A DNA stretch of 32,036 nt. It comes from Caulobacteraceae bacterium (lineage in GTDB: Bacteria; Pseudomonadota; Alphaproteobacteria; Caulobacterales; Caulobacteraceae). Below, piece by piece: positions 1,605-14,845 of the stretch (the stretch's first letter is position 1; each line of letters begins with the position of its first letter). The notes below the pieces were generated by a model. That model searched no databases. It was not told where the DNA came from and was given only the letters and a program-made list of their open reading frames with translations. The stretch lies in assembly GCA_003164925.1 (NCBI GenBank), contig PLRV01000024.1, forward strand, positions 41,357 to 73,392, in the 5' to 3' direction. The translations under genes were made by a program, and so were the position numbers.

Positions 1605-2890
1605 AGGAGGGCCTTCGCCCCGCGGGCGCCTTCAGCGGCTGGGAGCGCGCCATCGCCGGACGCTACCTGCGCGCCAAGCGCAAGGACGGCGGCGTGGCGA
1701 TCATTTCGCTTATTTCCTTCATCGGCATTACCCTGGCCGTGGCGGTCCTGATCATCGTGATGTCGGTGATGAACGGCTTTCGCGCCGAGCTGCTCGACCG
1801 CATTCTGGGCTTCAATGGCCATGCCTATGTGGGCGGCCCTCCGCTCAACAATCCGGCAAGCCGCGAGCAGGTCCTTCGCGCGGTGCGGCAGGTCCCGGGG
1901 GTGGTTCAGGCCGTGCCCATGGTCGAAGCTGAAGCCCTGGCTCAGGGTCCCGACAACATCACCGGCGCGGTGGTGCGCGGCGTCACGCCATCGGATCTGA
2001 AGTCGATCAAGATCGTGTCCGGCAACATCAAGCACGGTTCGCTCGACGGTTTTGGCGCAGGCGACTACGGCGGGGACCTTGTGTTGTTGGGCGATCGTCT
2101 GGCCAATCAGCTGGGGGTGCAGGCCGGCGATCCGGTGACCCTGGTCTCGCCCAGCGGCTCATCCACGGCGTTCGGCTCGGTCTCGGCCGAGAAGAAGACC
2201 TACACGGTGGGCGGGATCTTCAGCGTGGGCATGTCCGAATACGATCAGACCTTCATCTACATGCCCCTGGCCCAGGCCCAGCTGTTCTTTGGCCGCGACC
2301 AGGGCGTGGATGTGATCCAGATCATGCTGGACGATCCTGACCGGATCGGCGCGGTCAAGCCGCTGATCGCCCAGGCCGCCGGGCCCGGCGCCGCGGTTAC
2401 CGATTGGCGAGACAAAAACCAGAGCTTCTTCAACGCCCTGCAGGTTGAACGCAATACGATGCGGCTTATCCTGCTGCTGATCGTGGCCATAGCCGCGGCC
2501 AACATTATTTCGGGCTTGGTCATGCTGGTGAAGAACAAGGGCCGGGATATCGCCATCCTGCGCACCATGGGCGCCAGCCGGGGCGCGATCTTGCGAATCT
2601 TCTTCCTTTCGGGCGCCACGGTAGGGGCGCTCGGAACCCTGGCGGGGCTGATCTTAGGCGTGCTGTTTTGCGCCTATATCGAGCGGATCCAGAAGTTCGT
2701 GGAGTGGGCTACAGGCTCGGACGTGTTCAACGCCGACGTTTACTTCCTGGCGCACATTCCGGCCAAGATCGACTGGTCCGAGGTGGCTTTCATCACCCTT
2801 CTGTCCCTGGCCATGTCGTTCCTGGCCACTTTACCGCCCGCTTGGCGCGCCTCGCGCCTCGATCCGGTGGAGGCCTTGCGCTATGAGTGA
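1601..2890 (+). CDS. lolC: Lipoprotein-releasing ABC transporter permease (LolC/LolE family)
   Basis: This inner-membrane permease of the Lol system moves outer-membrane lipoproteins from the inner membrane to LolA. The 429 residues show a MacB/FtsX-type layout: a first membrane helix at about 35-57, a large periplasmic domain, and three C-terminal helices near 288-310, 330-352 and 393-413. It ends in the family-typical [11 protein letters not shown]. Many alphaproteobacteria have one such permease in place of separate LolC and LolE, and only one is present here. The GTG start overlaps the proS stop by 4 nt. An AGGAGG lies just inside the gene (1605-1610) with no start codon behind it, so GTG 1601 with AAAGG at 1586-1590 is preferred. 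It overlaps lolD by 8 nt. Confidence 0.93.
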
Positions 2891-3572
2891 CCCGGTCCTG
2901 TCCTTGCGTGGGCTGGAGCGCTCCTATCTGTCCGGCGGTCGCACGCTCGAGGTGCTGCGCGGGGTGGATTTGGACGTCTATCCGGGCGAACTGGTGGGGC
3001 TCATCGGGCCGTCCGGGTCGGGCAAGTCCAGCTTGCTCCACGCCGCCGGGCTCCTCGAGAAACCTGACGCCGGGCTGATCGCCATCGACGGGCGCAATTG
3101 CGCCAAGCTGAACGAGACGGCGCGGACGCGCCTTCGGCTGGGCCATATCGGCTTTGTCTACCAGTTCCACCACCTGTTGCCGGAGTTCTCGGCCCTGGAC
3201 AATGTCGCCTTGCCCCAGCGCATCGCCGGCAAGAGCAAGGGCCAGGCGCGCGCTCGGGCCCAGGCCCTGCTGGAGCAGCTCGGTCTGGGGCAGCGCCTGA
3301 CCCACCAGCCGGCCCAGCTTTCCGGCGGGGAGCAGCAGCGGGTGGCCTTCGCCCGGGCCCTGGCCAACGATCCCTTGATCGTGATGGCCGATGAGCCCAC
3401 GGGCAATTTGGATCCGCACACCTCCGCGGCGGTGTTCGACAACCTGCACCAGCTTTGCCGTTCCCATGGAGTGGCGGCCTTGATCGCGACCCACAATCTG
3501 GAGTTGGCGCGGCATATGGACCGCGTGTTCAGCCTGGTTGACGGACGCCTGGTTCAACAAAGCTTCAGCTAG
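2883..3572 (+). CDS. lolD: Lipoprotein-releasing ABC transporter ATPase LolD
   Basis: This cytoplasmic ATPase powers the LolC-type permease encoded just before it. The 229 residues contain Walker A GPSGSGKS (42-49), the Q-loop at Q94, the ABC signature LSGGEQ (146-151), Walker B ending in MADE (168-171) and the H-loop H204. YQFHHLLPEFSALDNV, after the Q-loop, is the usual LolD pattern. ATG 2883 lies inside the end of lolC, which implies translational coupling within the proS-lolC-lolD operon. The TAG stop is the first of several TAG-tipped palindromic sequences. Confidence 0.96.
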   Translation: MSDPVLSLRGLERSYLSGGRTLEVLRGVDLDVYPGELVGLIGPSGSGKSSLLHAAGLLEKPDAGLIAIDGRNCAKLNETARTRLRLGHIGFVYQFHHLLPEFSALDNVALPQRIAGKSKGQARARAQALLEQLGLGQRLTHQPAQLSGGEQQRVAFARALANDPLIVMADEPTGNLDPHTSAAVFDNLHQLCRSHGVAALIATHNLELARHMDRVFSLVDGRLVQQSFS

Positions 3573-3640
3573 GGCCGGATTTTCGGCTAGAGCCATTTCC
3601 GATCTGATCGATTCGATAGGATCGAACAAAAATGGCTCCA
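3570..3640. repeat. Palindromes at the lolD 3' end
   Basis: A short imperfect hairpin starts with the lolD stop codon (TAGGGCCG 3570-3577, CGGCTA to 3589). It is followed by a larger element whose arms GAGCCATTT (3590-3598) and AAATGGCTC (3630-3638) pair perfectly, with an inner CGATC/GATCG stem (3600-3604 and 3620-3624). It is a likely transcription terminator for the proS-lolCD operon. It is related to the elements at 215, 3652, 4886, 7215 and 30040. Confidence 0.7.
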
Positions 3641-3651
3641 CTTCATATAGT

Positions 3652-3703
3652 TAGAGCATTTTTTGATCCGATAACCGCGTCACGCTTATCGGAAAATTCT
3701 CTA
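3652..3703. repeat. TAGAG/CTCTA palindrome with inner stem
   Basis: The outer arms TAGAG-C-ATTTT (from 3652) and AAAAT-T-CTCTA (ending 3703) pair with one mismatch. The inner arms CCGATAA (3668-3674) and TTATCGG (3686-3692) are perfect. It is a tandem partner of the element ending at 3640. It lies between lolD and the ParA-like gene and is probably untranslated. Confidence 0.7.
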
Positions 3704-3865
3704 GGCGATTGCGGCTAAACCCGCTGTGCTCCAGCCGCCTCAGCTGTGCCCAAAAAGATATCAAGCAGCCTTGGGGCCCGGTGTTTCATTATCCGAATCT
3801 TACCTCTAGTCTTGACGGCACATGTCAAGGCGCGCTTTTTGCCCGGATAGCTCGGGGAGGGCGCG

Positions 3866-4579
3866 GTGCGAACTTTAGCAATTCTGTCGCAAAAGGGCGG
3901 AACGGGGAAGACGACGGTGGCGATTCATCTCGCCGTCGCGGCCCACGAAAAAGGCCGACGCACGCTGATCGCCGATCTTGATCCTCAGAGATCCGCCACC
4001 GAGTGGCGGAGGATGCGCGAGGCGGAGTCCCCCGCCCTGATCGAAGCCAAGGCGGGCACCCTGTTTGTGGCCAGCCATACGGCCGAACGCACCGGCGTGG
4101 ATCTGATGGTCCTCGACACGCGCCCTGCGCAGGACAGCGACGTTGCCGAAGCGGTGCGTCTGGCCGACCTCTGCCTTCTGGTCCTGCGTCCATCCTTTTT
4201 CGACATCAAGGCCATCGGCCGTTCCCTCGAGATGGCGCGCGCCATGGGCAAGCCGGCGATGTTTGTGGTCAATCAGGCCCCGCCGCAGCGGGAGCATCGC
4301 GAGCCGCCAGCAGTCTTAGAAACGGTCGCGGCCCTGCGCGAAATGGGCGCGCCTTTGGCTCCGGTGGGCCTGCGATCCCGCAACATCTATCAAAGCGCCG
4401 TGGCCAAGGGCCTGACGGCCCAGGAGATGGCGACCGACAGCACCGCGGCCCAGGAGGTCAACCTGCTTTGGGCGCACATCGAGCAGGCGCTGTGGCCTTC
4501 AGCCGACAGTCGGCAGACCTCCAAGGCCGCGCCGCTGGTGAGGCGGCCGAGCCTGAGCGAAACCATGGCTGCTCAATAG
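3866..4579 (+). CDS. Orphan ParA-family ATPase
   Basis: This 237-residue P-loop ATPase belongs to the ParA/MinD superfamily. It has the deviant Walker A motif KGGTGKTT (10-17), with the signature lysine K10 and catalytic-loop lysine K15. It also has the A' region ADLDPQRSA (36-44) and a Walker B-like LMVLDTRP (80-87). The C-terminal 30 residues are polar and look disordered. No parB gene and no obvious parS site are adjacent, so it is not the main chromosome segregation operon. A GGGGAGG at 3854-3860, 5 nt upstream, supports the GTG start. It precedes the Flp pilin gene by 132 bp. It could position a surface structure or a protein cluster, but its cargo is unknown. Confidence 0.85.
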   Translation: MRTLAILSQKGGTGKTTVAIHLAVAAHEKGRRTLIADLDPQRSATEWRRMREAESPALIEAKAGTLFVASHTAERTGVDLMVLDTRPAQDSDVAEAVRLADLCLLVLRPSFFDIKAIGRSLEMARAMGKPAMFVVNQAPPQREHREPPAVLETVAALREMGAPLAPVGLRSRNIYQSAVAKGLTAQEMATDSTAAQEVNLLWAHIEQALWPSADSRQTSKAAPLVRRPSLSETMAAQ

Positions 4580-4616
4580 ACAGCTTGCGGCTGCATAGGT
4601 CGGCGACCGAGTTTCG

Positions 4617-4632
4617 TTAGGCGAAGTTTAAC
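4617..4632 (+). promoter_or_regulatory. Candidate CtrA-binding site upstream of the Flp pilin gene
   Basis: TTAG at 4617-4620, seven bases, then TTAAC at 4628-4632 match the CtrA consensus TTAA-N7-TTAAC with one mismatch. The site is 80 bp before the pilin ATG, a reasonable place for a cell-cycle-controlled activator site. In Caulobacter crescentus the main pilin gene pilA is CtrA-activated. The match is visible in the sequence; binding is inferred. Confidence 0.5.
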
Positions 4633-4711
4633 CAGCTTTTCCTATTCTGAAGCTGATGGGCGGCGCTTAAAAAGCAACGCAGCGGCCCTCTATAGTGTGA
4701 GAGGGACTGGG

Positions 4712-4888
4712 ATGGCGCGTTTTTTGGCTCGTTTCCGCAAGGATTGTTCCGGCGCGACCGCCATTGAGTACGGTTTGATCGCCTTTTTGGTCGCCGTGGC
4801 GATCATCAGCGGCGCGAGCGCCATTGGCGCCGCCGTGAACAGCACGCTGCAAACCGATAGCGCCAAAGTCGCCGCAGCCGGATCCTAG
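4712..4888 (+). CDS. Flp/type IVb pilin subunit, solitary
   Basis: This 58-residue pre-pilin has a short basic leader (MARFLARFRKDCSG) followed by ATAIEYGLIAFLVAVAIIS, the Flp pilin N-terminal helix. TadV/CpaA-type peptidases cleave after the glycine, here G14, which leaves glutamate at position 5 of the mature chain (E19) next to a tyrosine, as in all Flp pilins. The tail (AVNSTLQTDSAKVAAAGS) is short and polar. ATG 4712 with an upstream GAGAGGG is preferred to an in-frame GTG at 4697. No tad/cpa assembly genes are nearby, so it would need a Tad machine encoded elsewhere. The TAG stop is the left tip of a palindrome. Confidence 0.9.
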   Translation: MARFLARFRKDCSGATAIEYGLIAFLVAVAIISGASAIGAAVNSTLQTDSAKVAAAGS

Positions 4889-4935
4889 AGCACGATTCAG
4901 CGTTTAGGCGATTCCGCCTAAACCCATCGGCTCTA
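4886..4935. repeat. Palindrome between convergent genes that supplies both stop codons
   Basis: The tips TAGAGC (4886-4891) and GCTCTA (4930-4935) flank an inner perfect 9-bp stem, GTTTAGGCG (4902-4910) with CGCCTAAAC (4915-4923), around the loop ATTC. The TAG of the left tip is the stop of the plus-strand pilin gene, and the TAG of the right tip, read on the minus strand, is the stop of the epimerase gene. A bidirectional terminator is the simplest reading. Confidence 0.8.
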
Positions 4936-5838
4936 GCCGACCAGGGCTATGCTCATGGACAGCGCTGCGGTCTGGGCCGGCCCGATCGTCATGATGCCGG
5001 GTTTGGCGTCGAGGTCGCCCAGAAAATCTTTCGGGTCGGCCACGCCATGCCAGGGCTCGATGCAGACGAAGCCGGCGCCGGGCTTGCTCCACACGCCCAG
5101 ACGGCGGGTTTGCGGGAAGGCGATTTCCAGTTGCGGACCGGTCCGCGCGCCGTAGCGGAGCTTTGCGCTGCGAACCGGGTCGAAGATGACGGCGTCCGCG
5201 GCGAACAGCGCGTCGCCCAGCGGCAGGTCGCATCCCCGCACCGGCGTGGCGAACGGCGTCGGCAGCACCAGGCCGTCTTGGCTCAGCCGACGGATGGGCT
5301 CCGGCTCAGGCTCGTCGAACGCCAATCGGTGCTCCGATCGCGGCTGGCCATAAGGCAGTGGCCAGCGAAAGGCCGGGTGAAATCCGAAACTGGCCAGCAT
5401 CGGCCCGTTCGTGTCCAGATTGCCGATGAGCACGCCGATGGTCAGCGTGCGTTCGCTTATGGAAAAGCGGATGTCGAGCTGAAAGCGGAAGGGATAGACG
5501 GCGAAGGTCGCGGGGCTCCAATTCAGCCGGAACGTGGCGGCGTCCGTCCGCTGCTCCATAATCTCGAACAGGCTGCGCCGGGCAAAGCCGTGCCGGGACA
5601 GGGCATAGCTCTGGCCTTGCCAACGGAAGCGGCCGCCCGCCAGCTCGCCGACGATGGGGAACAGGACCGGCGCCCTTCCGGTCCAGACGGCGGCGTCGCC
5701 GTTCCAAAGCAGATCTCGCCCCGCTACGTCCTGCAGCCCATGCAGTTCAGCGCCCATGGGATCGATTTGGGCGGCTAAGCCGTTAGAGCCTATCGACACC
5801 AGGCGACGGTTATCGGCTATCGTCGTTTGATCGACCAA
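4933..5838 (-). CDS. Aldose 1-epimerase family protein
   Basis: This galactose-mutarotase-like beta-sandwich protein (COG2017) of about 301 residues probably interconverts anomers of a hexose or hexose-6-phosphate in the cytoplasm. The expected features are an N-terminal IDPMGAELHGLQD, then LFPIVGE, SRHGFARR (H83), FGFHPAFRWP (H154) and CIEPWHGVAD (E261, the usual catalytic glutamate), counted from the chosen start. That start is TTG 5838, with GGAGG (plus-strand CCTCC 5846-5850) at 7-nt spacing. The frame is open to a GTG at 5883, which would add 15 residues without family resemblance. It is divergent from the Nramp gene, so both promoters must lie in the short gap. Substrate specificity cannot be read from the sequence. 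Confidence 0.88.
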   Translation of the reverse strand: MVDQTTIADNRRLVSIGSNGLAAQIDPMGAELHGLQDVAGRDLLWNGDAAVWTGRAPVLFPIVGELAGGRFRWQGQSYALSRHGFARRSLFEIMEQRTDAATFRLNWSPATFAVYPFRFQLDIRFSISERTLTIGVLIGNLDTNGPMLASFGFHPAFRWPLPYGQPRSEHRLAFDEPEPEPIRRLSQDGLVLPTPFATPVRGCDLPLGDALFAADAVIFDPVRSAKLRYGARTGPQLEIAFPQTRRLGVWSKPGAGFVCIEPWHGVADPKDFLGDLDAKPGIMTIGPAQTAALSMSIALVG

Positions 5839-5903
5839 ACCGGGGCCTCCAGCGTCGCCGTCATTCGCGCCGGCCACGTTCACTATCAGCCACGCGAGCC
5901 TGC

Positions 5904-7217
5904 ATGAAGTCTCCTCAGCGCGACCCCGATCAATCGCCGGCGACCAGCCGGCTTCAAATCTTCTGGGATCGCGTTAAGGAACATCCCCTGGCGCGCGTCG
6001 GCCCGGGGCTGATCACGGGCGTCGCCGACGACGATCCCAGCGGAATCGCCACCTATTCGCAGGCAGGGGCCCAGTTCGGCCTCAATATGCTGTGGACCAT
6101 GCCGCTGTGCTTTCCACTGATGGCGGCCATTCAGTCCATTTGCGCGCGGATTGGCCGGGTGACCGGCAAGGGTCTGGCGGCCAACATCAAGACGGCGTTC
6201 CCGCCCGTGGTGTTGCGTTCGGTCATCCTGCTCCTGCTGGTGGCCAACACCCTCAATATCGCCGCCGACGTCGCGGCCATGGGCGAGGTGGGCGAACTGG
6301 TCACCGGCGTGAACCGACATTTCATGACCCTGGTGTTCGTGATCGGCTCGCTCGTCCTGCAGGTGTTCGTGCCCTACCACCGCTATGTGGCGTTCCTGAA
6401 GTGGCTCACCCTGTCGTTGCTCGCCTATGCGGCGGTGCTGTTCACGGTGCACGTTCCGTGGGGCCAGGTCGCGCTGCGCACGGTCTGGCCGAAATTCACC
6501 CTCAACGCCACGTCCGCGGCGGTTGTCGTGGGCGTGTTCGGCACGACCATCAGCCCCTACCTGTTTTTCTGGCAGGCCTCCGAAGAGGTGGAGGACATGC
6601 GCCGTTCAGGCGGGCAGGCGCTCATCAACAAACGCTCCGTGGCCAAGGCGGAGCTGCGCCGCATCAAATGGGACACCTGGAGCGGGATGTTCTACTCCGA
6701 CATCACCGCCTTTTTCATCATCCTGGCGACGGCGGTGACGCTCAATGTGCACGGCATTACCAACATCAACACGGCGGCGCAGGCGGCGACGGCGCTTCGG
6801 CCCCTGGCGGGTCAGTTCGCCTTTTTGCTGTTTACGATCGGCCTGCTGGGCGTGGGTCTGATCGGTGTTCCGGTGCTGGCCGGCTCAGGCGCCTACGCCC
6901 TGGCCGAAGCCATGGGCTGGAAGGAGGGGCTGGAACGCAAGACGGCGGACGCCCGCGGGTTCTACAGCGTCATCGCGGTCAGCGTCCTGCTGGGCCTGGT
7001 GATCCAGTATTCCCCCATCAGTCCGATGAAGGCCCTGTTCTGGAGCGCGGTGATCAACGGCGTCGTCGCGGTTCCATTGATGGCCGTCATCATCCTTCTC
7101 GCCTCGAAAAAGAGCGTCATGGGCCCGTACACCGCCAGCCGCACCCTGGTGGTCCTGGGCTGGATCGCCACAGGCGTGATGGGCATAGCCGCCTGCGCGA
7201 TGTTCATCCCCAGCTAG
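5904..7217 (+). CDS. Nramp-family divalent metal ion transporter with non-canonical metal site
   Basis: This 437-residue protein has a LeuT-like fold of about 11 membrane helices and belongs to the Nramp group (COG1914). Helix 1 carries GVADDDPSGIATYSQAG: the aspartate-proline (D44-P45) and T50 of the DPGNxxT motif are kept, but glycine and asparagine become S46-G47. Helix 6, where classical Nramps have MPH, reads TTISPYLFFWQASEE (214-228), so the metal-binding methionine is missing. Classical Mn/Fe transport is therefore uncertain, and another cation such as Mg is possible. No SLC11-type regulator or metal-responsive element is visible. The TAG stop begins a palindrome. It is divergent from the epimerase gene. 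Confidence 0.88.
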   Translation: MKSPQRDPDQSPATSRLQIFWDRVKEHPLARVGPGLITGVADDDPSGIATYSQAGAQFGLNMLWTMPLCFPLMAAIQSICARIGRVTGKGLAANIKTAFPPVVLRSVILLLLVANTLNIAADVAAMGEVGELVTGVNRHFMTLVFVIGSLVLQVFVPYHRYVAFLKWLTLSLLAYAAVLFTVHVPWGQVALRTVWPKFTLNATSAAVVVGVFGTTISPYLFFWQASEEVEDMRRSGGQALINKRSVAKAELRRIKWDTWSGMFYSDITAFFIILATAVTLNVHGITNINTAAQAATALRPLAGQFAFLLFTIGLLGVGLIGVPVLAGSGAYALAEAMGWKEGLERKTADARGFYSVIAVSVLLGLVIQYSPISPMKALFWSAVINGVVAVPLMAVIILLASKKSVMGPYTASRTLVVLGWIATGVMGIAACAMFIPS

Positions 7218-7258
7218 AGCATTTTCCGATGAGTGTGACGCGCCGATTGGAAATGCTG
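7215..7258. repeat. Degenerate TAGAGC palindrome at the Nramp gene 3' end
   Basis: TAG 7215-7217 is the stop codon of the transporter gene. AGCATTT (7218-7224) pairs with AAATGCT (7251-7257), extended by CC/GG after one bulged T. The right tip has lost its CTA. It is a probable terminator, standing between the transporter gene and the convergent tRNA-Thr. Confidence 0.6.
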
Positions 7259-7273
7259 CTGGGTTTTCGGGCC

Positions 7274-7349
7274 TGGCGCCGGTTGCAGGATTCGAACCCG
7301 CGACCTTCGCTTTACAAAAGCGCTGCTCTACCAGCTGAGCTAAACCGGC
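7274..7349 (-). tRNA. tRNA-Thr (anticodon UGU)
   Basis: On the minus strand the 76 nt fold as a full cloverleaf. The acceptor stem GCCGGTT/AACCGGC is perfect, the D-arm is GCTC...GAGC, the anticodon loop is TTTGTAA with anticodon TGT (Thr, codon ACA), and the T-arm is GCGGG-TTCGAAT-CCTGC. The CCA end is encoded at 7274-7276. The discriminator is G. The top anticodon-stem pair (27-43) is a G-A mismatch; the other four pairs are good. Confidence 0.95.
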
Positions 7350-7640
7350 GACCTTAGGCCCGTACTGTCAGGCGTATAGCGGCGCCCGCCGTCCAGGGAA
7401 AGCCGCAAGGCGGATAGGCCGGCTGATAGACAAGGGTATGCTCAACAGCCTGGTCGGCCGAACGGGGCGGCGGCCGTTGTCCAAAGCCCCGCGCGGACGC
7501 CTCTTGTCACCCACCTAAACCCAGGCTCAGATCAACCCAGGACTCTCGTTGTGGCTGGATGAGAAACGGGGGGGCAGGTCACCGGCAATTGCTGACTCTT
7601 TTGAGACTCTGGGAAGGTCTGCTCTCGAGCCGGCCGGAGC

Positions 7641-8150
7641 CTAGTCTGAAACCGCGTCCGGAGGAACTGCTGGTTGAGGGTGTCCTGGAGGATAGCGCCC
7701 CTCATTTCGTTCCCGATACCAGCGAAGAGCATCAGGTTCATTTATTGCAATGAAGTCCAGAGCGATATTTTGCAAATTCTTCTTAGCCTTACCAATCGCA
7801 CTGGTGTTCATTCCATGGAAGCGTGCCGCGCCATGGTACCAATTGGTCCAAACAGGGTCGTGGTCAACTGCCACACCGAGTGCTTGGGCCTGACGGACTG
7901 TGAACGTGGATGCACCCACCGCCCTTCCAACAGCAGGATAGAGGGAATCCGCTCGCAGTCCGTCTACGACTAACAGCTCTTCAAGATCGCCCGAAAGAGA
8001 ACGGTCCTTGGATGATGGTCCAAATGCCGCGGACGAAGCACGCCAACATTTCTGTTTTGCGTCGTAAACGACCTGATCGGGCGACTGTAGCGTTCGAACA
8101 AACCGCGAGTCAGGGCTGGAGAGCGCCTTGCGTCGACGAAATGCTTTCAT
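7641..8150 (-). CDS. Uncharacterised protein, third gene of the three-gene cluster
   Basis: I cannot name this protein. The chosen start, ATG 8150, gives 169 residues. The frame is open upstream to 8219, which would lengthen the overlap with the preceding gene from 41 to 110 nt. Visible parts are a basic N-terminus (KAFRRRK), a central stretch with AFGPSSKDRSLSGD, then AQALGVAVDHDPVWTNWYHG with histidines and a tryptophan pair, an alanine/lysine helix (SAIGKAKKNLQNIA) and a proline-rich tail. There are no membrane helices and no known catalytic motif. From memory, small uncharacterised proteins with a similar layout (FxPSxKD, then LSV, then LGLxVxxDP, then H) occur in several phyla. It is probably co-transcribed with the two genes before it. 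Confidence 0.65.
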   Translation of the reverse strand: MKAFRRRKALSSPDSRFVRTLQSPDQVVYDAKQKCWRASSAAFGPSSKDRSLSGDLEELLVVDGLRADSLYPAVGRAVGASTFTVRQAQALGVAVDHDPVWTNWYHGAARFHGMNTSAIGKAKKNLQNIALDFIAINEPDALRWYRERNEGRYPPGHPQPAVPPDAVSD

Positions 8151-8766
8151 CACCAGCATTGCGACGCGGCGAGGCGGCCCAGGGCGCCCAACTAAGGAAG
8201 AGATTCCGCGCCAGACCATCCTCCCCCTCGCACACCTTTCCGGCTGTATGATCGCGACTCCAAAACGACAGGTTGCCGTTCGGATCGACCGTCAATTCAA
8301 TCTCAGCGATCGTGCCGTGCCATTCAACTTGGACACTGCCGTCGCCCGCGGGAACAAGATAGGGCGGAAGGGCATCAGGCAGATCGGTCAGGGCATCGCG
8401 AGCGATTTGCTCGGCCTTGTAGAGGGCCACCTTCGAAGAGGGAACCGACCCCGGCCCGTCCCAGCCCGTCGGCAATGCTTGTAAGCGTTTGGAAGCAGCG
8501 GTGAAAATATCAAGCCAGACGGGGCGCGTGTATACATAGTTGAGCCCGGCGCACTCAGACGTCATCGCGACAGCATTGATCCATGACGCATGTGCGTTTG
8601 CGCTGCCTGAGCCAGGGTTATCCGATTCAATCATGGTAGCGCTTGAGATAGCGCTCATGGTGGCAGTGCCGCTCCCGAGCTGACGGGAGGCGCGTTCCCC
8701 CGCACCGTGAGTTGCACCCGAGTTAGCCGTGGGCCAACTGAAAAAGGAGATTTCGGCTGGGGGCAT
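8110..8766 (-). CDS. Uncharacterised protein with GWDG motif, second gene of the cluster
   Basis: This 218-residue protein has no family name that I recognise. The first 80 residues or so are rich in S, A, T and G and look disordered. The C-terminal half is compact: RLQALPTGWDGPGS, then a helix (SSKVALYKAEQIARDAL), then LPPYLVPAGDGSVQVEWHG, and beta-strand-like IAEIELTVDPNGNLSFWS. The order GWDG, P-x-DG, EWHG, strand recurs in uncharacterised proteins I have seen, but it has no assigned function. Its ATG directly follows the TAA of the upstream gene with no gap, which suggests termination-reinitiation. Its end overlaps the downstream gene. The real start could be an internal methionine in the disordered part. 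Confidence 0.7.
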   Translation of the reverse strand: MPPAEISFFSWPTANSGATHGAGERASRQLGSGTATMSAISSATMIESDNPGSGSANAHASWINAVAMTSECAGLNYVYTRPVWLDIFTAASKRLQALPTGWDGPGSVPSSKVALYKAEQIARDALTDLPDALPPYLVPAGDGSVQVEWHGTIAEIELTVDPNGNLSFWSRDHTAGKVCEGEDGLARNLFLSWAPWAASPRRNAGDESISSTQGALQP

Positions 8767-9543
8767 TTAAAAGGCGTCCAGAGCGATGGTGGCTGCGTAC
8801 ATAGCCCTAATATGGGTATGCACGGCGTCAGCGGTAGCAAAAACTGTGTCTGCAGACGTGCTAGGCGACAGGGGTGCCATAGCAGAAAAGTTAAAAATGA
8901 AGGCCGGCGTGGCCGGCGGGACGGTGCCTATCGTTGCCACGGCATCGACATAACCACCATCTGTATTTGGTACAAGCTCGCGCCATCCCAAGTGGAACTG
9001 TTCAAGCGGTCGATCGCCAAAACCTCCAAGTTTGAAGTACTGCGGAACGTGCAGCGATGATCCTTCTGGTTCCTCAATGGGGAACGCATTTTGGTAGCTG
9101 AATTCTAGGTGCCTAAGTAGCGGCACCCCGCCCAAATGATCGACGGACCATCGATTGAAGCGGTCGAGCAGCACTTGCCAACGCCCGCGCAACGCATCGT
9201 ATCCAGGATAGTTGGCTTCGTCGCCGACGGGCTCAGTTCGATGCCAGGCGAAGGCAAGCCGGTCGTGTTGGAAGACGAGATAATCACTCACGTTGTCGCC
9301 ACGAAGGAATATCCGGGGCATCTGCGACATGGGCCCGAGGATCAGCCCCTGAAACCCAGCTGTTTGCTGCCTCGCTGGGCTCCATTGGACCGTGGGCAAT
9401 GGTGCTTGCTGCTGCAGGTCAAGGCCGGCTTCCTTGAACGCCTCAACCCAAGAAGCTAGGTCCAGAACGTTGAAGGTTGGCGATGGCGCAAAATGAATGC
9501 CGAAGACGACATCCTGAAGCGTTCGGCTCGGCTGCGAGGCCAT
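8767..9543 (-). CDS. TIGR04255-like family protein, first gene of the cluster
   Basis: The 258-residue protein has the pattern of the sporadically distributed family TIGR04255. It has an N-terminal strand after a short leader (LQDVVFGIHF), then a strand-loop-strand around DYLVFQHDRLAFAWHR. A YPGYDALRGRW helix start follows, then a helix ending in FNRW and LLRHLEFSYQNAFPI, the usual strand after the helix. Function is unknown for the family. ATG 9543 is preferred over an in-frame TTG 9549 because GGAGA lies 9 nt upstream. No signal peptide or membrane helix is visible. The gene sits alone at the head of a minus-strand cluster, with about 200 bp of non-coding DNA before it that should hold the promoter. 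Confidence 0.75.
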   Translation of the reverse strand: MASQPSRTLQDVVFGIHFAPSPTFNVLDLASWVEAFKEAGLDLQQQAPLPTVQWSPARQQTAGFQGLILGPMSQMPRIFLRGDNVSDYLVFQHDRLAFAWHRTEPVGDEANYPGYDALRGRWQVLLDRFNRWSVDHLGGVPLLRHLEFSYQNAFPIEEPEGSSLHVPQYFKLGGFGDRPLEQFHLGWRELVPNTDGGYVDAVATIGTVPPATPAFIFNFSAMAPLSPSTSADTVFATADAVHTHIRAMYAATIALDAF

Positions 9544-9743
9544 CTGCAAGGGTCTCCAAAGCGGGCCAGATCGCCAGTCATTACCAACCTGCCAGCACTA
9601 TACAAGGTTCGTCAACGATGCCCCCTGTGCCAGCCACGGAACGGCGTGCTTCTTCGACCCTAACGGCGCCCGGATGTCTGGTTTCCGCAAGAAAGCCAAT
9701 GCCCGCTATTGGCGCTTCAGTCCCGGCACAGCGGCCGCATACG

Positions 9744-11012
9744 TCACGCAGCCTTCACGTCATAACCCAGGTAGCGCAGAGCTTTGGCCATGCGGCCGTT
9801 CATCGGCGGGCAGTCCTCAGGCTTTACGCTGCCGTAGAGCTCCAGCGCGCAGAAGAAGCCGAAGTACGCCAGCTTCATTCTCGGGTCGTAGAGCACATCG
9901 TGCAGACGCTCGATGAAATCGCCCGGCCCATGAATGAGATAGGCGAGGGTGCGCCGGACCTTTTCAACGTCGCCGCTGTTCGCCGACCAGAATGCCACCG
10001 GCAGGGCGGCAAGCCCGCCTTTGACGAACCGCAGCTGTTCGGTGAAGGCGTGCAGCGACATCAGGCCCTGGGTGATCTCCTCCTTAGATGCCGCCTCGAT
10101 CCCCGCAGCCGAGCTGAATACCCGCGCGATGGTCTGCAGCCACGCCACGTAGGTATCCGGCACCTTGCTGTCGGCGGCGGTCGCCCACTCGGCGCCCAAC
10201 CTTTCAATCAGCGCGCGACGGTCAGTCGGCGCACGCAGTGGGGCGGTCTGCCAAGCTTCCTCTCCGATGGCGTAGGTTCGGCGGACCCAGTTCAGGAAGC
10301 GATTGGTCTCGTTGGCCAGACCAATGACGGCGAGTTCGGGTCGGCGAAAGCCATGCTCCGCCAGGACGCTGCTGACCTCCGCGAAGGCCGGCCGGTACTG
10401 CTCATAGACTTGACGCTGAAGATCATCGAGGAATAGCCGTTCCCTGGACTTGGCGGCGCTGCCGACGGTGATGTTTCGCGGCTCAGCGCGCCCCACCGCC
10501 GCCTCGATCGTCTCGTCCGGGTCGGGGCCCTTCGGCCGGCTGCTGCGCCAGGCCCGGGTGAAGGTCTCCAGAACTGCCGGGGTGAGGACCTTGGCCTGCT
10601 CCCAGAGTTCAAGGAACAGGGCACGGACCTGCTCGACGGCCTCGAAGTCCTCCGGTTGGTCGAGGCAAATTACGGCTTCGCGATTAGCGAAGAGGCCGCC
10701 TTCCGTAAGATTGGCTGAGCCGAGGATTGCGCAGTCGTCGAAGAGGTAGATCTTGGCGTGGAAGCGATGGGTCAGGAAACGCACTGCGACGTTCGGCGCC
10801 TTGAAGGCCCCGGCGAGAGCGTCAGGATGGGTCGCGCTGTTCAAGCCGACAAGAAGCTGTACCGTCTTTCCGGAAGAGGCGGCGTCGACGATCGGCCCTG
10901 CGGCCGTGAAATAGGGTGCCGCCAGGTGCAGCCGCGAGGCCTTGGCGGCCAGCCGGTCGAAGGGATTGCGGACGTAGTCGAACTCGCCGCCGTTGGAAAA
11001 CACCCGCCTCAT
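9744..11012 (-). CDS. Phospholipase D-like (HKD) domain protein
   Basis: This 422-residue protein starts with an HKD-superfamily domain: NPFDRLAAKASRLHLAAPYF, a hydrophobic strand (VQLLVGLNSAT), then HAKIYLFDD (H85, K87, D92) and GSANLTEGG (G98, S99, N101), with E112 downstream. Only one HKD motif is present, so it probably works as a homodimer, as Nuc and BfiI nucleases do. The remaining 300 residues are helical and have no domain I can name. PLD-type folds of this sort include nucleases and defence proteins such as DrmC, but no partner genes are adjacent. AAGGGGG stands just before ATG 11012. It is divergent from sidA, and a minus-strand promoter candidate overlaps the LexA box. Confidence 0.8.
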   Translation of the reverse strand: MRRVFSNGGEFDYVRNPFDRLAAKASRLHLAAPYFTAAGPIVDAASSGKTVQLLVGLNSATHPDALAGAFKAPNVAVRFLTHRFHAKIYLFDDCAILGSANLTEGGLFANREAVICLDQPEDFEAVEQVRALFLELWEQAKVLTPAVLETFTRAWRSSRPKGPDPDETIEAAVGRAEPRNITVGSAAKSRERLFLDDLQRQVYEQYRPAFAEVSSVLAEHGFRRPELAVIGLANETNRFLNWVRRTYAIGEEAWQTAPLRAPTDRRALIERLGAEWATAADSKVPDTYVAWLQTIARVFSSAAGIEAASKEEITQGLMSLHAFTEQLRFVKGGLAALPVAFWSANSGDVEKVRRTLAYLIHGPGDFIERLHDVLYDPRMKLAYFGFFCALELYGSVKPEDCPPMNGRMAKALRYLGYDVKAA

Positions 11013-11219
11013 GCCGCCCCCTTGCGCCTGCCACCTTGCACTTCAATGCTACGATCCGTCGGCGCAAGAGGCGCCGTCGAACGTCCGCGAACTGGAGCGG
11101 ATCCAACGTCGGCTCCTGGCGCTCTTCGGTCACGTGACGAGCAATAGCATTTTGCAAGCGGCAGGCGGGTGTGGCGCTTTGCTGCTCGATCTTTTCCCAT
11201 CGTTATACCCCCCCCGTTG

Positions 11220-11248
11220 TTGACTCGGAACAAATCACGAACTAAGAA
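11220..11248 (+). promoter_or_regulatory. Candidate sidA-dnaE promoter
   Basis: TTGACT (11220-11225, five of six to the -35 consensus) and TAAGAA (11243-11248, three of six to the -10) are spaced by exactly 17 bp. The LexA box fills most of the spacer. A GACTC (GANTC, the CcrM methylation site) at 11222-11226 overlaps the -35. The -10 is weak, so the element is a candidate. Confidence 0.55.
11228..11242. promoter_or_regulatory. LexA (SOS) box, GAAC-N7-GAAC
   Basis: GAAC 11228-11231, seven bases, GAAC 11239-11242 is the reverse complement of the alphaproteobacterial LexA operator GTTC-N7-GTTC, with no mismatch. A third GAAC follows at 11246-11249. Its place between -35 and -10 would let LexA block RNA polymerase, so the downstream genes should be induced by DNA damage. 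Confidence 0.85.
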
Positions 11249-11280
11249 CAAATCAGCAACGTTTTTTGGAGAGCGATCTG

Positions 11281-11370
11281 ATGATCCGAGTGGCGCGTGA
11301 AGGTCTGGCGCTTGCGTCTGTGGCCGGGTTCGTTTGGATGATGTGTTCAGTGGCCCATCTGATCGCCTGA
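11281..11370 (+). CDS. sidA: SOS-induced cell division inhibitor SidA (29 residues)
   Basis: The open frame ATG 11281 to TGA 11370 encodes 29 residues: a basic start (MIRVARE), then a hydrophobic helix at about 8-28 ([20 protein letters not shown]), so one inner-membrane segment. GGAGAG at 11268-11273, 7 nt upstream, is a good ribosome site. In Caulobacter crescentus, SidA is a 29-residue, LexA-controlled inner-membrane peptide that halts division by acting on FtsW/FtsN after DNA damage, and its gene lies next to dnaE. Length, membrane helix, LexA box and neighbour all agree. The assignment is by these features and not by residue alignment. Confidence 0.85.
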
Positions 11371-11407
11371 GTCGCGGGCGGGGGAGGGTTCGAGGAGAAT
11401 TTCGGCC

Positions 11408-14400
11408 ATGGCTCAAGACGGCGGCGAGGGGTTTGTCCACCTGAGGGTGCGTTCGGCCTATTCCCTGCTGGAGGGCGCGATCAAGGCCGACGCCGTCGTC
11501 GCCCTGGCCGTCGCCAACGATATGCCGGCGGTGGGTCTGACGGACCGGGCCAATCTGTTCGGGGCGCTGGAATTCTCGGTGGCCGCCAAGGACGCCGGCG
11601 TGCAGCCCATCGTCGGGTGCGCCCTGCCCGTGTGCGGGATCGGCGAGGGGCCCGCCAATCGGTGGGCGCGCATTCCAACCGTGACGCTGCTGGCTCAGGA
11701 CGAGGTCGGCTATCGCAATCTGATGGTGCTGTCCTCGTCCGCCTTCCTGGACGTGGAGGCCGGGACCGATCCCCAGGTTCCTTGGGACAAGGTGCTGGCC
11801 CATGCCGAGGGCCTGATCCTGCTGTCGGGCGGTCCGGATGGTCCGGCCGATTCCCTGTTCGCGGCGGGCAGGACCGCGGAGGGCCAGGGGGTGCTGGCGG
11901 CCATGCAGGCGGGCTTTGGCGAACGGTTTTACGTGGAGCTGCAACGGCATGGCTTGGCCGCGGAGGCGGCGGCCGAGCCGGGACTGGTAGCCTGGGCCTA
12001 TGCGCACGACGCGCCGCTGGTGGCTGCCAACGACGTCTATTTCGCCCGGCGCGAACTGTACGAGGCGCACGACGCCCTGCTGTGCATCGAGCAGGGGGCC
12101 TTCATCGGCCAGGATGAGCGGCGGCGCGTCACGCCCGAACACTGGTTCAAACCGGCGCAGGAGATGCGCCGCCTGTTCGCCGACCTGCCGGAGGCCTGCG
12201 ACAACACCGTGGATATCGCCCGGCGCTGCGCCTTCATGGTCAAGAAGCACGACCCGATCCTGCCGCGCTTTCCCACCAGCGCGGGCCGTACCGAGGCTGA
12301 GGAGTTGGCGGTCCAGGCCGCCGAGGGCCTGAAGGCCAAGCTGGCGACGATGCCCCTGGCCGCGCCCGAACAGGCCTATTGGGACCGGCTGGAGCTGGAG
12401 ATCGGCGTCATCCAGAAGATGGGCTTCTCCGGGTATTTTCTGATCGTTTCGGATTTCATGAAATGGTCGGTGGCTCACGGCATTCCGGTCGGACCGGGCC
12501 GCGGATCGGGCGCCGGCTCGCTTGTGGCCTGGGCGCTGCTGATCACCGGGCTCGACCCTCTGCGATACGGTCTGATCTTCGAGCGCTTCCTCAATCCCGA
12601 GCGGGTGTCCATGCCCGACTTCGACATCGACTTCTGCCAGGAGCGGCGGGAGGAGGTGATCGCCTACGTCCAGGACAAGTACGGCAAGGACCGGGTCGCC
12701 CAGATCATCACCTTCGGCACCCTGCAGGCGCGCGCGGTGTTGCGCGACGTGGGCCGAGTGCTGCAACTGCCCTTGGGCATGGTCGACCGTCTGGCCAAGA
12801 TGGTCCCCAACAACCCCGCTGCCCCGGTCACCCTTGCCCAGGCCATCAACATCGAGCCGCGCCTGAAGGCGGCGCGCGATGACGATCCGGCTGTCGCGCA
12901 GCTGCTGCAGTTGGCCCTGCAGCTTGAGGGCCTCTACCGCAACGCCTCCACCCATGCGGCCGGCGTGGTCATAGCGGACCGGCCCCTGACCGAGCTGACG
13001 CCGCTTTATCGAGACCCCGGCTCCGACTTCCCGGCCACTCAGTTCAATATGAAATGGGTCGAGAGCGCCGGACTGGTGAAGTTCGATTTTCTCGGCCTGA
13101 AGACCCTGACGGTGCTCGACCGCATCCGTAAACACCTGATCAAGCGGGGCGCGGGGGTCGATCTGGCCACCCTGCCGCTGGACGATGCGCGCGCTTACGA
13201 GATCATGGCGGCCGGTCAGACGGTGGGGCTGTTCCAGCTTGAAAGCCAGGGCATGCGCGACACCCTGCGCAAGCTCAGGCCCTCGTCGCTGGAAGAGATC
13301 ACGGCCTTGATCTCGCTCTACCGGCCGGGCCCGATGGACAGCATCCCCGACTATGTGGAGTGCAAGTCGGGACGCAAGCCGATCAACGTCTACCATCCCC
13401 TGCTGCAGCCGGTGCTCGGCGATACCTATGGGGTGATCGTCTATCAGGAACAGGTGATGCAGATCGCCCGGATCATGGGCGGCTACTCCCTGGGCGAGGC
13501 GGATCTTCTGCGCCGGGCCATGGGCAAAAAGAAAAAGGAGGAGATGGATCAGCAACGCGCCCGGTTCACCTCCGGCGCCTTGGAGCGCGGCTTCGACGGC
13601 GATCTGGCGGGGCTTCTATTCGAACTGATGGCCAAGTTCGCCGGCTACGGTTTCAACAAATCCCACGCCGCGCCCTATGCCTTGATCGGCTACCAGACGG
13701 CCTGGCTCAAGGCCAACTGCCCCGTGGAGTTCTTCGCCGGCTCCATGAGCCTGGACATGTCCAACACCGACAAGTTGGCGGTGTTCTATCAGGACGCCAG
13801 GCGCTTCGGGGTGCCGGTGCGCTCGCCCGACGTCAATCGCTCGGGCGCCGACTTCGAGGTGGAGAACGCCGAAGTGCTCTACGCCCTGGGCGCGGTGCGC
13901 AATGTGGGCTTCGAGGCCATGCGGCATGTGGAGGCCGTGCGCGAGCAGGGCGGTCCGTTCAGGGATCTGTTCGATTTCGTCGAGCGCGTGGACCCCAGGT
14001 CCGTCAACCGCCGCGCCTTGGAAACCCTCGCCCGGGCGGGCGCATTCGACAGCATTCATCCCAACCGGGCTCAGATCGTGGCCGCGGCCGAATCCCTGGC
14101 CGCCTACGGCCAGAGCGTGGCCGCCGAGCGCGCTTCGTCCCAGCACAGCCTGTTCGCCGGCGATCACGCCGAGGCCGCCCGCCCGCGCCTGCCCAAGGTC
14201 GACCCATGGCCCCATGCCGAGCAGCTCGATCAGGAGCTGTCGGCCGTCGGCTTCTATCTGTCGGGCCATCCCCTGCAGGACATGGTGGAGGTGCTGCGCC
14301 GCAAGCGCGTGACGCTCTACGCGGATGCGGTGGGCTTGGCGGAAGGCGGGACCGAAGCCTTGCGCATGGCGGGGGTGGTGCGGCGCAAGCAGGAACGCGC

Positions 14401-14845
14401 CTCGGCCAAGAGCGGAGAGAAGTTCGCCTTCGTCACCCTGTCCGATCCTACCGGCGAATACGAGGTGCTGTTTCCGCCGGAGTCCCTGCGCCGGTGCCGA
14501 GAGGTGCTGGAGCCGGGACAATCGGTCTGCATCAAGGTGCGCACCAAGGCCAGCGAGGGCGAGGTGCGTTTCTTCGGCGACGACGCGGAGGCCATCGACC
14601 GCATCCTGGAAGGCGCGGTGGCGGGGCTACGCATCTATCTGGCGCCGCGGTCGGCGCAGATGGATGCGCTCAAGCGCCGCCTGGACACGGCCGCCTCGGG
14701 CCGGGGCGGGGAGGTGACCCTGGTGGCGGGCATGGAGGGGGGGCGCGAGGTCGAGCTGCGCCTGCCCGGCCGTTTCAACCTGGACGCCGCCCTGCGCGGG
14801 GCGCTGAAGACCGCGCCGGGGGTGATCCTCCTGGAGGACGTGTAA
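11408..14845 (+). CDS. dnaE: DNA polymerase III subunit alpha
   Basis: This is the catalytic subunit of the chromosomal replicase. The 1145 residues are close to the 1160 of E. coli DnaE. In order they show an N-terminal PHP domain ([16 protein letters not shown]), and a C-family polymerase core with catalytic aspartates D404 and D406 in PDFDIDFC and D560 in [10 protein letters not shown]. The tail carries helix-hairpin-helix and OB-fold regions (about 975-1050: [30 protein letters not shown]). Start ATG 11408 has GAGGAG at 11392-11397. It is 37 bp behind sidA with no terminator between, so at least part of its transcription may come from the LexA-controlled promoter. Confidence 0.97.

Follow-up and report, generated by a model that had tools for sequence, protein, structure and literature searches.

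SOS division inhibitors are usually regarded as lineage-specific inventions. SidA of Caulobacter crescentus is described as an inner membrane protein of 29 residues with FtsW as its interaction partner, and its effect is reported to be relieved by FtsW or FtsI mutations (PMC4211646); the extreme filamentation of a lexA mutant has been attributed to constitutive sidA expression (PMC12700426). The LexA consensus given for C. crescentus, GTTC-N7-GTTC (PMC12700426; PMC9578287), is the same motif as GAAC-N7-GAAC on the opposite strand. Here we describe a sidA gene and its surroundings in a stretch of 32,036 nucleotides from a Caulobacteraceae bacterium (contig PLRV01000024.1, positions 41,357 to 73,392); this whole stretch is referred to as the window, and its own numbering is used for all coordinates. 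Genes resembling this one, with the same type of LexA operator in front and with dnaE as the neighbour behind, appear from their sequences to extend far outside the Caulobacteraceae, beyond the reach of the curated SidA model. This is the strongest new point of the analysis.

The gene occupies window positions 11281-11370 on the forward strand, with its ATG at 11281, 29 codons and a TGA stop at 11368-11370. It is followed on the same strand, 37 nt downstream, by dnaE (11408-14845), encoding the 1145-residue alpha subunit of DNA polymerase III. The initial annotation had read this open reading frame (ORF) as a sidA-like gene behind a LexA box; the observation was confirmed and its reading is supported and largely right. 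The peptide matches NCBIfam model NF033228.1 (cell division inhibitor SidA) from end to end (positions 1-29 of 29) with 67.7 bits against a cut-off of 35, and 22 of its 29 residues are identical to those of SidA from Caulobacter vibrioides DSM 9893; a Pfam search gave no match for it. Over residues 11-29 the mean hydropathy is 1.84, from which a single membrane helix is predicted. Judged by these similarities, the ORF is almost certainly the sidA of a Caulobacteraceae member, encoding a single-span division inhibitor of the SOS type, and nothing was found in the sequence that contradicts this identity. The FtsW encoded by the window genome is 75% identical (288/386) to that of DSM 9893 and keeps residues A31, F145 and A246; mutation at A31 is reported to relieve SidA, and mutations at others of this set to relieve both SidA and DidA (PMC4211646). 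The window gene is itself an expected orthologue of an already-known type, and its interest lies in where it leads.

Within the Caulobacteraceae, NF033228 was found at E ≤0.01 in 327 of 391 genomes (210 above the cut-off) and in 20 of 22 genera, compared to one of 14 control genomes, namely C. vibrioides. A scan of named genomes gave 162 relatives, the best 80 of the 162 being mostly labelled Caulobacter or Phenylobacterium. From 130 loci, the script recognised the peptide in 114 (window included; 101 distinct), and in all 114 the start motif of dnaE comes no more than 280 nt further on. The initial annotation had given dnaE as the neighbour and had named a lack of similarity to SidA at this locus across the family as grounds for refutation; these counts bear out the neighbour and show the similarity to be present. 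The remaining 16 loci were inspected individually: nine have a divergent SidA ORF before the dnaE motif, in four only the peptide was read, one (L112) was resolved on later inspection and in another (L111) the ORF fell outside the stretch read. The last of the 16, a match with an E of 0.76 (L120, genome G001), has no dnaE motif and was dropped as chance. The same explanation was rejected for the weak matches in genera g3 and g14, where position and operator show divergent SidA genes. Two divergent Caulobacteraceae peptides score 20.5 and 17.4 bits against NF033228, and five g14 genomes missed by the model carry a divergent copy at the dnaE slot. In two further genomes (G004, G025) the dnaE query found nothing closer than a 44% match, which is probably a paralogue and has no slot gene or box ahead of it.

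In 40 genomes from four families of the order outside the Caulobacteraceae (f2 to f5, 10 each), the N-terminus of DnaE was used as an anchor and the 500 bp upstream were read. A LexA box, a single-span micro-ORF and dnaE stand in the same order and on the same strand in 27 of the 30 genomes of f3 to f5. All 10 genomes of f4 have such a gene (for example MRRVLQDVSAATAILGFAWMITLWGSVLGAA), as do all 10 of f5 (six of the type MENETLRDVVGLGVLLTVIGAAQFWGALLGA and four others) and seven of 10 in f3 (five of the type MAQLQDAAAFAAILAFTLMAWGWGAVIG and two others); no slot gene was seen in those 500 bp in any of the 10 genomes of f2. The box is perfect in 23 of the 27 genomes and one base off in the other four (G062, G087, G091, G095). 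Among the 10 f2 genomes, G093 carries a perfect box but no ORF, and in f3 the same holds for the box of G082. The initial annotation had remarked that genes this small are usually missed; this is not necessarily so in the Caulobacteraceae, for which NCBI has an equivalog model; the peptides scanned from outside the family escape that model.

For the rest of the class, 110 genomes outside the family had a dnaE match, and the 78 with at least 2.0 Mb were read. The other 32 were excluded because genomes of their size are likely to be reduced; at least one family of small genomes (f18; G445, G761) nevertheless has the gene, so the share found is not exact. Searched with the N-terminus of the window DnaE, 112 of 115 genomes of the class had given a DnaE-like match. 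Box, micro-ORF and dnaE were found together in 15 of the 78 upstream regions, 14 by script and one (G491) by eye, its ORF MDWVKDAAGLAALVGLWGAFAAWAEIIGSVVGS between box and dnaE being below the script threshold. A perfect box lies on the dnaE strand in 15 of the 78, and in 14 of these a hydrophobic ORF of 20-50 codons stands between box and dnaE, compared to four of the 63 upstream regions without a box (Fisher p 4e-11, using the 14 found by script). On the opposite strand a box was found in seven of the 78, mostly near dnaE. When all 78 were shuffled with dinucleotides preserved (20 rounds), a mean of 0.75 and a maximum of three upstream regions contained a box, and the ordered arrangement of box and ORF did not occur. 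One genome (G441) has no box on either strand upstream of dnaE; the count of 15 is unchanged. LexA is present in all 15 slot-positive genomes. Lack of LexA as the cause of empty slots was rejected; a LexA match was found in 53 of 53 genomes (15 slot-positive and 38 negative), in 52 of them above the cut-off. Six genomes from five families (G439, G522, G525, G497, G435 and G537) carry lexA and dnaE on one contig, about 24-28 kb apart, and in these six lexA and the sidA-dnaE slot form a conserved neighbourhood.

The question then is whether the outside peptides are related to SidA or whether single-span peptides with no kinship to it came into being behind this operator on separate occasions. 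NF033228 gave no match, up to E 10, with 11 peptides from outside the Caulobacteraceae, and because the cut-off of the curated model is not reached we name the outside peptides SidA-like rather than SidA. In favour of independent origin, most of the outside peptides fail to outscore their own shuffles. With a hidden Markov model (HMM) built from 73 Caulobacteraceae peptides, only four of 10 f4 peptides and four of 14 class peptides (two of the latter four nearly identical) beat all 100 of their own shuffles, with none of four in f3 and none of 10 in f5; no outside peptide scanned attains the SidA cut-off, and those of G491, G761, G743 and G445 are not clearly above their shuffles, 647, 500, 110 and 65 of 1000 respectively being as good. 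Against this, all share the slot, the operator type, a length of 25-47 residues and one hydrophobic span. Moreover, the relationship shows more clearly when the comparison starts from the outside peptides. A 13-row alignment of f4 and class peptides, from which the Caulobacteraceae were excluded (A2), aligns with the SidA profile at 96% probability and an E of 3.8e-9 for the pair (hhalign). An HMM of 21 non-Caulobacteraceae peptides (25 otherwise; the name filter also removed four f12 and f18 rows) placed 73 of 73 SidA peptides above 99% of the pooled shuffles, the window peptide scoring 18.3 bits. A2 also found sidA itself in four listed Caulobacteraceae genomes; in G022 another locus scored higher. 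Profile comparison ties part of the outside peptides to SidA, and we consider independent origin rather unlikely.

When A2 was run against 385 genomes of the class, 35 of them had a match at E 0.05. Eight matches at E ≤2.4e-4 come from genomes outside A2 (G584, G659, G755, G743, G664, G761, G726 and G445; G539 was excluded as near-identical to G439), with a perfect box upstream in seven of the eight and dnaE next in six. The contig of G445 ends after a lolD-like gene and the ORF, and in G664 lolC- and lolD-like genes lie ahead, another gene behind, and there is no box. The G659 peptide is the same as one in A2, so the eight are not all independent. A match at E 0.0016 in G675 also has the box and dnaE. 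The weaker matches are mostly unrelated; five, judged by eye, are the tail of a diacylglycerol-kinase-like protein. A2 weakly matches the last membrane helix of such proteins (KDxxSAxV...W; L310, L315, L318, L321, L322), a likeness that may reflect either shared origin or convergence.

The slot gene could also be followed into named strains. In a 3.7 Mb record of Sinorhizobium meliloti Ak57, labelled a plasmid, the annotation runs from a lipoprotein-releasing permease and an ABC ATP-binding protein, which by position are lolC and lolD, across a gap to dnaE. The gap contains the LexA boxes GAACGGAAATAGAAC and GAACAAAAAGGGAAC and a 28-codon membrane ORF, MADFVRDLAAFASMSLFIVSISVIALGL; the peptide of Sinorhizobium sp. 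K101 is the same, and Shinella sp. PSBB067 has MTDFLRDLAAFTSVAMFVASFSVILFGI behind GAACAAAAATCGAAC. For the S. meliloti peptide, two of 1000 full shuffles and 17 of 1000 pattern-keeping shuffles score as well with the SidA HMM; for the Shinella peptide this is true of one in 1000 of either kind. A box with an ORF was not found at the other nine of the 12 named dnaE loci in the plasmid collection; the locus of Methylorubrum extorquens AM1 shows one isolated box, 524 nt ahead of dnaE. A ribosome-profiling and proteogenomics study of S. meliloti lists a novel small ORF, sORF25, in the 5'-untranslated region (5'-UTR) of dnaE1, and its authors suggest that some 5'-UTR sORFs are upstream ORFs (uORFs) (PMC10117765). 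It is likely that sORF25 is the 28-codon ORF found behind the LexA boxes; transcription of dnaE1 would then begin ahead of this ORF, in the stretch that holds these boxes.

This raises the alternative that the sidA ORF is a leader peptide, or uORF, which tunes dnaE by translation, its membrane helix being incidental. Such a role has been offered for the S. meliloti 5'-UTR sORFs, the one before dnaE1 being named (PMC10117765), and in the window 37 nt separate the ORF from dnaE, with neither a promoter nor a terminator detected between the two. Against this, the peptide itself is constrained. In one f3 genus it is kept while the DNA drifts (pS 0.466, pN 0.007; 10 pairs), and the ratio of non-synonymous to synonymous differences (pN/pS) is 0.02 there, 0.27 in an f5 genus and 0.36 in the Caulobacteraceae (6421 pairs, 114 sequences), where it indicates purifying selection. 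Seven columns are invariant in 21 aligned family members: M1, S13, V14, F17, V18, W19 and M20. Further, the distance from the ORF to the dnaE motif varies from 39 to 280 nt among relatives, which translational coupling would not favour, and the C. crescentus orthologue is reported as an experimentally shown division inhibitor (PMC4211646). The leader-peptide explanation therefore seems very improbable to us.

Upstream of the window gene, all on the forward strand, a -35-like hexamer TTGACT (11220-11225, direct reading) is followed by a predicted LexA operator, site 1, with a perfect GAAC-N7-GAAC (GAACAAATCACGAAC, 11228-11242), and by a ribosome-binding site GGAGAG (11268-11273, direct reading) 7 nt before the ATG. 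These elements, the 29-residue ORF and dnaE are all present, as the initial annotation had read them. It had overlooked a second LexA-like site (GAACAAATCAGCAAC, 11246-11260), which starts 18 bp after the first and has seven of the eight consensus bases. It had also set the box between -35-like and -10-like hexamers; TTGACT and the box stand, and the -10 is poor, without a consensus match. The probable -10 region, CTAAGAA (about 11242-11248), lies across the two sites, overlapping site 1 at its end and site 2 at its beginning, and was placed by eye alignment with relatives that have GAATATAGAAC at the same place. A sigma-70-type scan found no promoter-like pair in 11100-11500, and a scan of the 37-nt gap found no terminator-like site between sidA and dnaE. 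In many relatives a hexamer of the TTGAC- or TTGCAA-type lies a few nt ahead of site 1 (by-eye comparison).

Taking as LexA-like any site with at least seven of the eight half-site bases, two sites are present in 97 of 100 distinct Caulobacteraceae upstream regions, 91 of them at 16-18 bp and six at 25-26 bp; a tandem at 16-19 bp arose in five of 20,000 mononucleotide shuffles. Among the 91, the equivalent of site 1 reads GAAC-N7-GAAT in 64 and is fully perfect in 16, and that of site 2 is perfect in 48 and ends in CAAC, as in the window, in 23. The presumed -10 is overlapped by site 1, which in the window is the perfect one of the two, site 2 being weaker. Across 101 genomes the tandem pattern gave 49 matches in 46 genomes, compared to two for a reversed control. 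Their positions put 42 of the 49 ahead of sidA or of a SidA-like gene, and 11 places in other families of the order again have the LexA box, micro-ORF and dnaE. The other seven lie away from dnaE (G072, G006:C94, G027:C4, G055:C41, G052, G029 and G041); that of G055 is the lexA promoter, and the remaining six are without explanation or chance. The window genome also encodes lexA, whose start lies about 43 bp behind a perfect box. Of 20 perfect boxes inspected with their surroundings (from 100 in the genome), six besides that of lexA precede recA, uvrA, ssb, imuA, comM and radC (names assigned by eye).

These data are consistent with the following mechanism. Without damage, LexA bound to one or both of the neighbouring sites would cover the promoter and keep sidA low; on DNA damage, active RecA would lead to LexA cleavage, the promoter would open and the 29-residue peptide would be made. 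It would insert into the inner membrane as one helix and hold the septal wall-synthesis complex of FtsW, FtsI and FtsN inactive until repair. The damage-induced transcript may continue into dnaE, the replicative polymerase gene; neither a promoter of its own nor a terminator is seen ahead of dnaE, which makes such read-through plausible. By analogy with C. crescentus we infer SOS induction, FtsW binding and a division block in the window organism; the gene, its family membership, the double site and its conservation, the dnaE neighbour and the LexA-type boxes at other SOS-type genes are direct observations.

More broadly, SidA may be only one branch, that of the Caulobacteraceae, of an old family of LexA-controlled, single-span division inhibitors in the alphaproteobacteria. 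The family would sit in the gap between lolD and dnaE and be co-transcribed with dnaE, one SOS promoter both stopping septation and supplying polymerase, and sORF25 would be a member; we give this reading a probability of about 65%. Several points weigh against the account given above of the window gene and its operator. The initial annotation had treated the perfect LexA box as remarkable, and as evidence by itself the box had to be rejected: GAAC-N7-GAAC occurs once in the whole window (11228-11242) with 0.88 expected from shuffles, and 100 times genome-wide compared to 89 for the reversed control pattern. As this frequency is that of chance, the box carries weight only through its position and conservation. 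Site 2 is degenerate in the window genome, three of the 100 distinct upstream regions have a single site only, and about 97% of C. crescentus SOS promoters are reported to have one LexA box (PMC12700426), so that use of the second site is putative; it may be that the motif finder counted one box where several stand, as at the DSM 9893 operator. Co-transcription with dnaE, plausible from the sequence, is a further inference. Finally, three Caulobacteraceae genomes that have LexA and dnaE (G018, G019, G033) show no SidA-like ORF or box in the 500 bp upstream.

Several observations concern the surroundings of the slot and of other boxes. In the window, lolD (2883-3572) is separated from sidA by about 7.6 kb (3573-11219); among 71 named relatives with at least 2 kb of upstream sequence, lolD lies within about 2 kb of sidA in 46. 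The interval encodes a ParA-like ATPase, an aldose epimerase, an Nramp-type transporter, three ORFs without a Pfam match and a PLD-domain protein (9744-11012), as well as a tRNA-Thr (7274-7349); this tRNA gene suggests an inserted island reaching at least from its own position to 11012. At two of the loci away from dnaE (L170 and L171, in G006 and G027), the tandem LexA-like operator is flanked by a coaBC-like gene and, in divergent orientation, by a lipoprotein-like ORF of 182 codons, and in the window genome a perfect box precedes a coaBC-like gene (L137; all names by eye); this region is a possible further SOS target. Another perfect box of the window genome lies beside an mraZ-like gene (L133, by eye), and tandem boxes in G029 and G041 (L174, L175) precede a stretch similar to that downstream of the L133 box. 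If the boxes beside mraZ are real, SOS would be tied to the division gene cluster.

A division-inhibitor function for the slot peptides outside Caulobacter is putative, being read from sequence. The literature matches listed include no report of SidA-like genes outside the Caulobacteraceae and, in searches not all aimed at it, no SOS division inhibitor in alphaproteobacteria beyond Caulobacter. If the family reading is true, the class-wide genes at the dnaE locus would account for the inhibitor that is missing in Sinorhizobium and similar genera, a role would be offered for sORF25, a small ORF of hitherto unexplained function, and a link between replicative polymerase supply and division arrest would be directly testable in tractable strains.

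Among known systems, YneA, SosA, ChiZ and DivS resemble SidA as small SOS-induced membrane inhibitors, and YneA is reported to act on FtsW (PMC13396833); they differ in belonging to other phyla (a comparison by description only), and yneA, divS, chiZ and sidA have been termed unrelated genes (PMC4211646). DidA of C. crescentus is likewise described as a small membrane inhibitor acting on the FtsW/FtsI/FtsN complex; it is set apart by its description as SOS-independent and binding FtsN (PMC4211646). sORF25 resembles the SidA-like slot gene in being a small ORF in the 5'-UTR of dnaE1, and differs in that its authors propose a possible uORF role (PMC10117765); its match to the 28-residue ORF is by position. 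The closest system is SidA of C. crescentus and C. vibrioides (NF033228), which shares with the window gene its 29 residues, one span, a LexA box ahead, dnaE behind and the retained FtsW target residues. The DSM 9893 protein differs from that of the window at seven of 29 residues, and its operator reads, by eye, as one perfect box with two imperfect boxes behind it, where the window has a perfect site 1 and a site 2 ending in CAAC.
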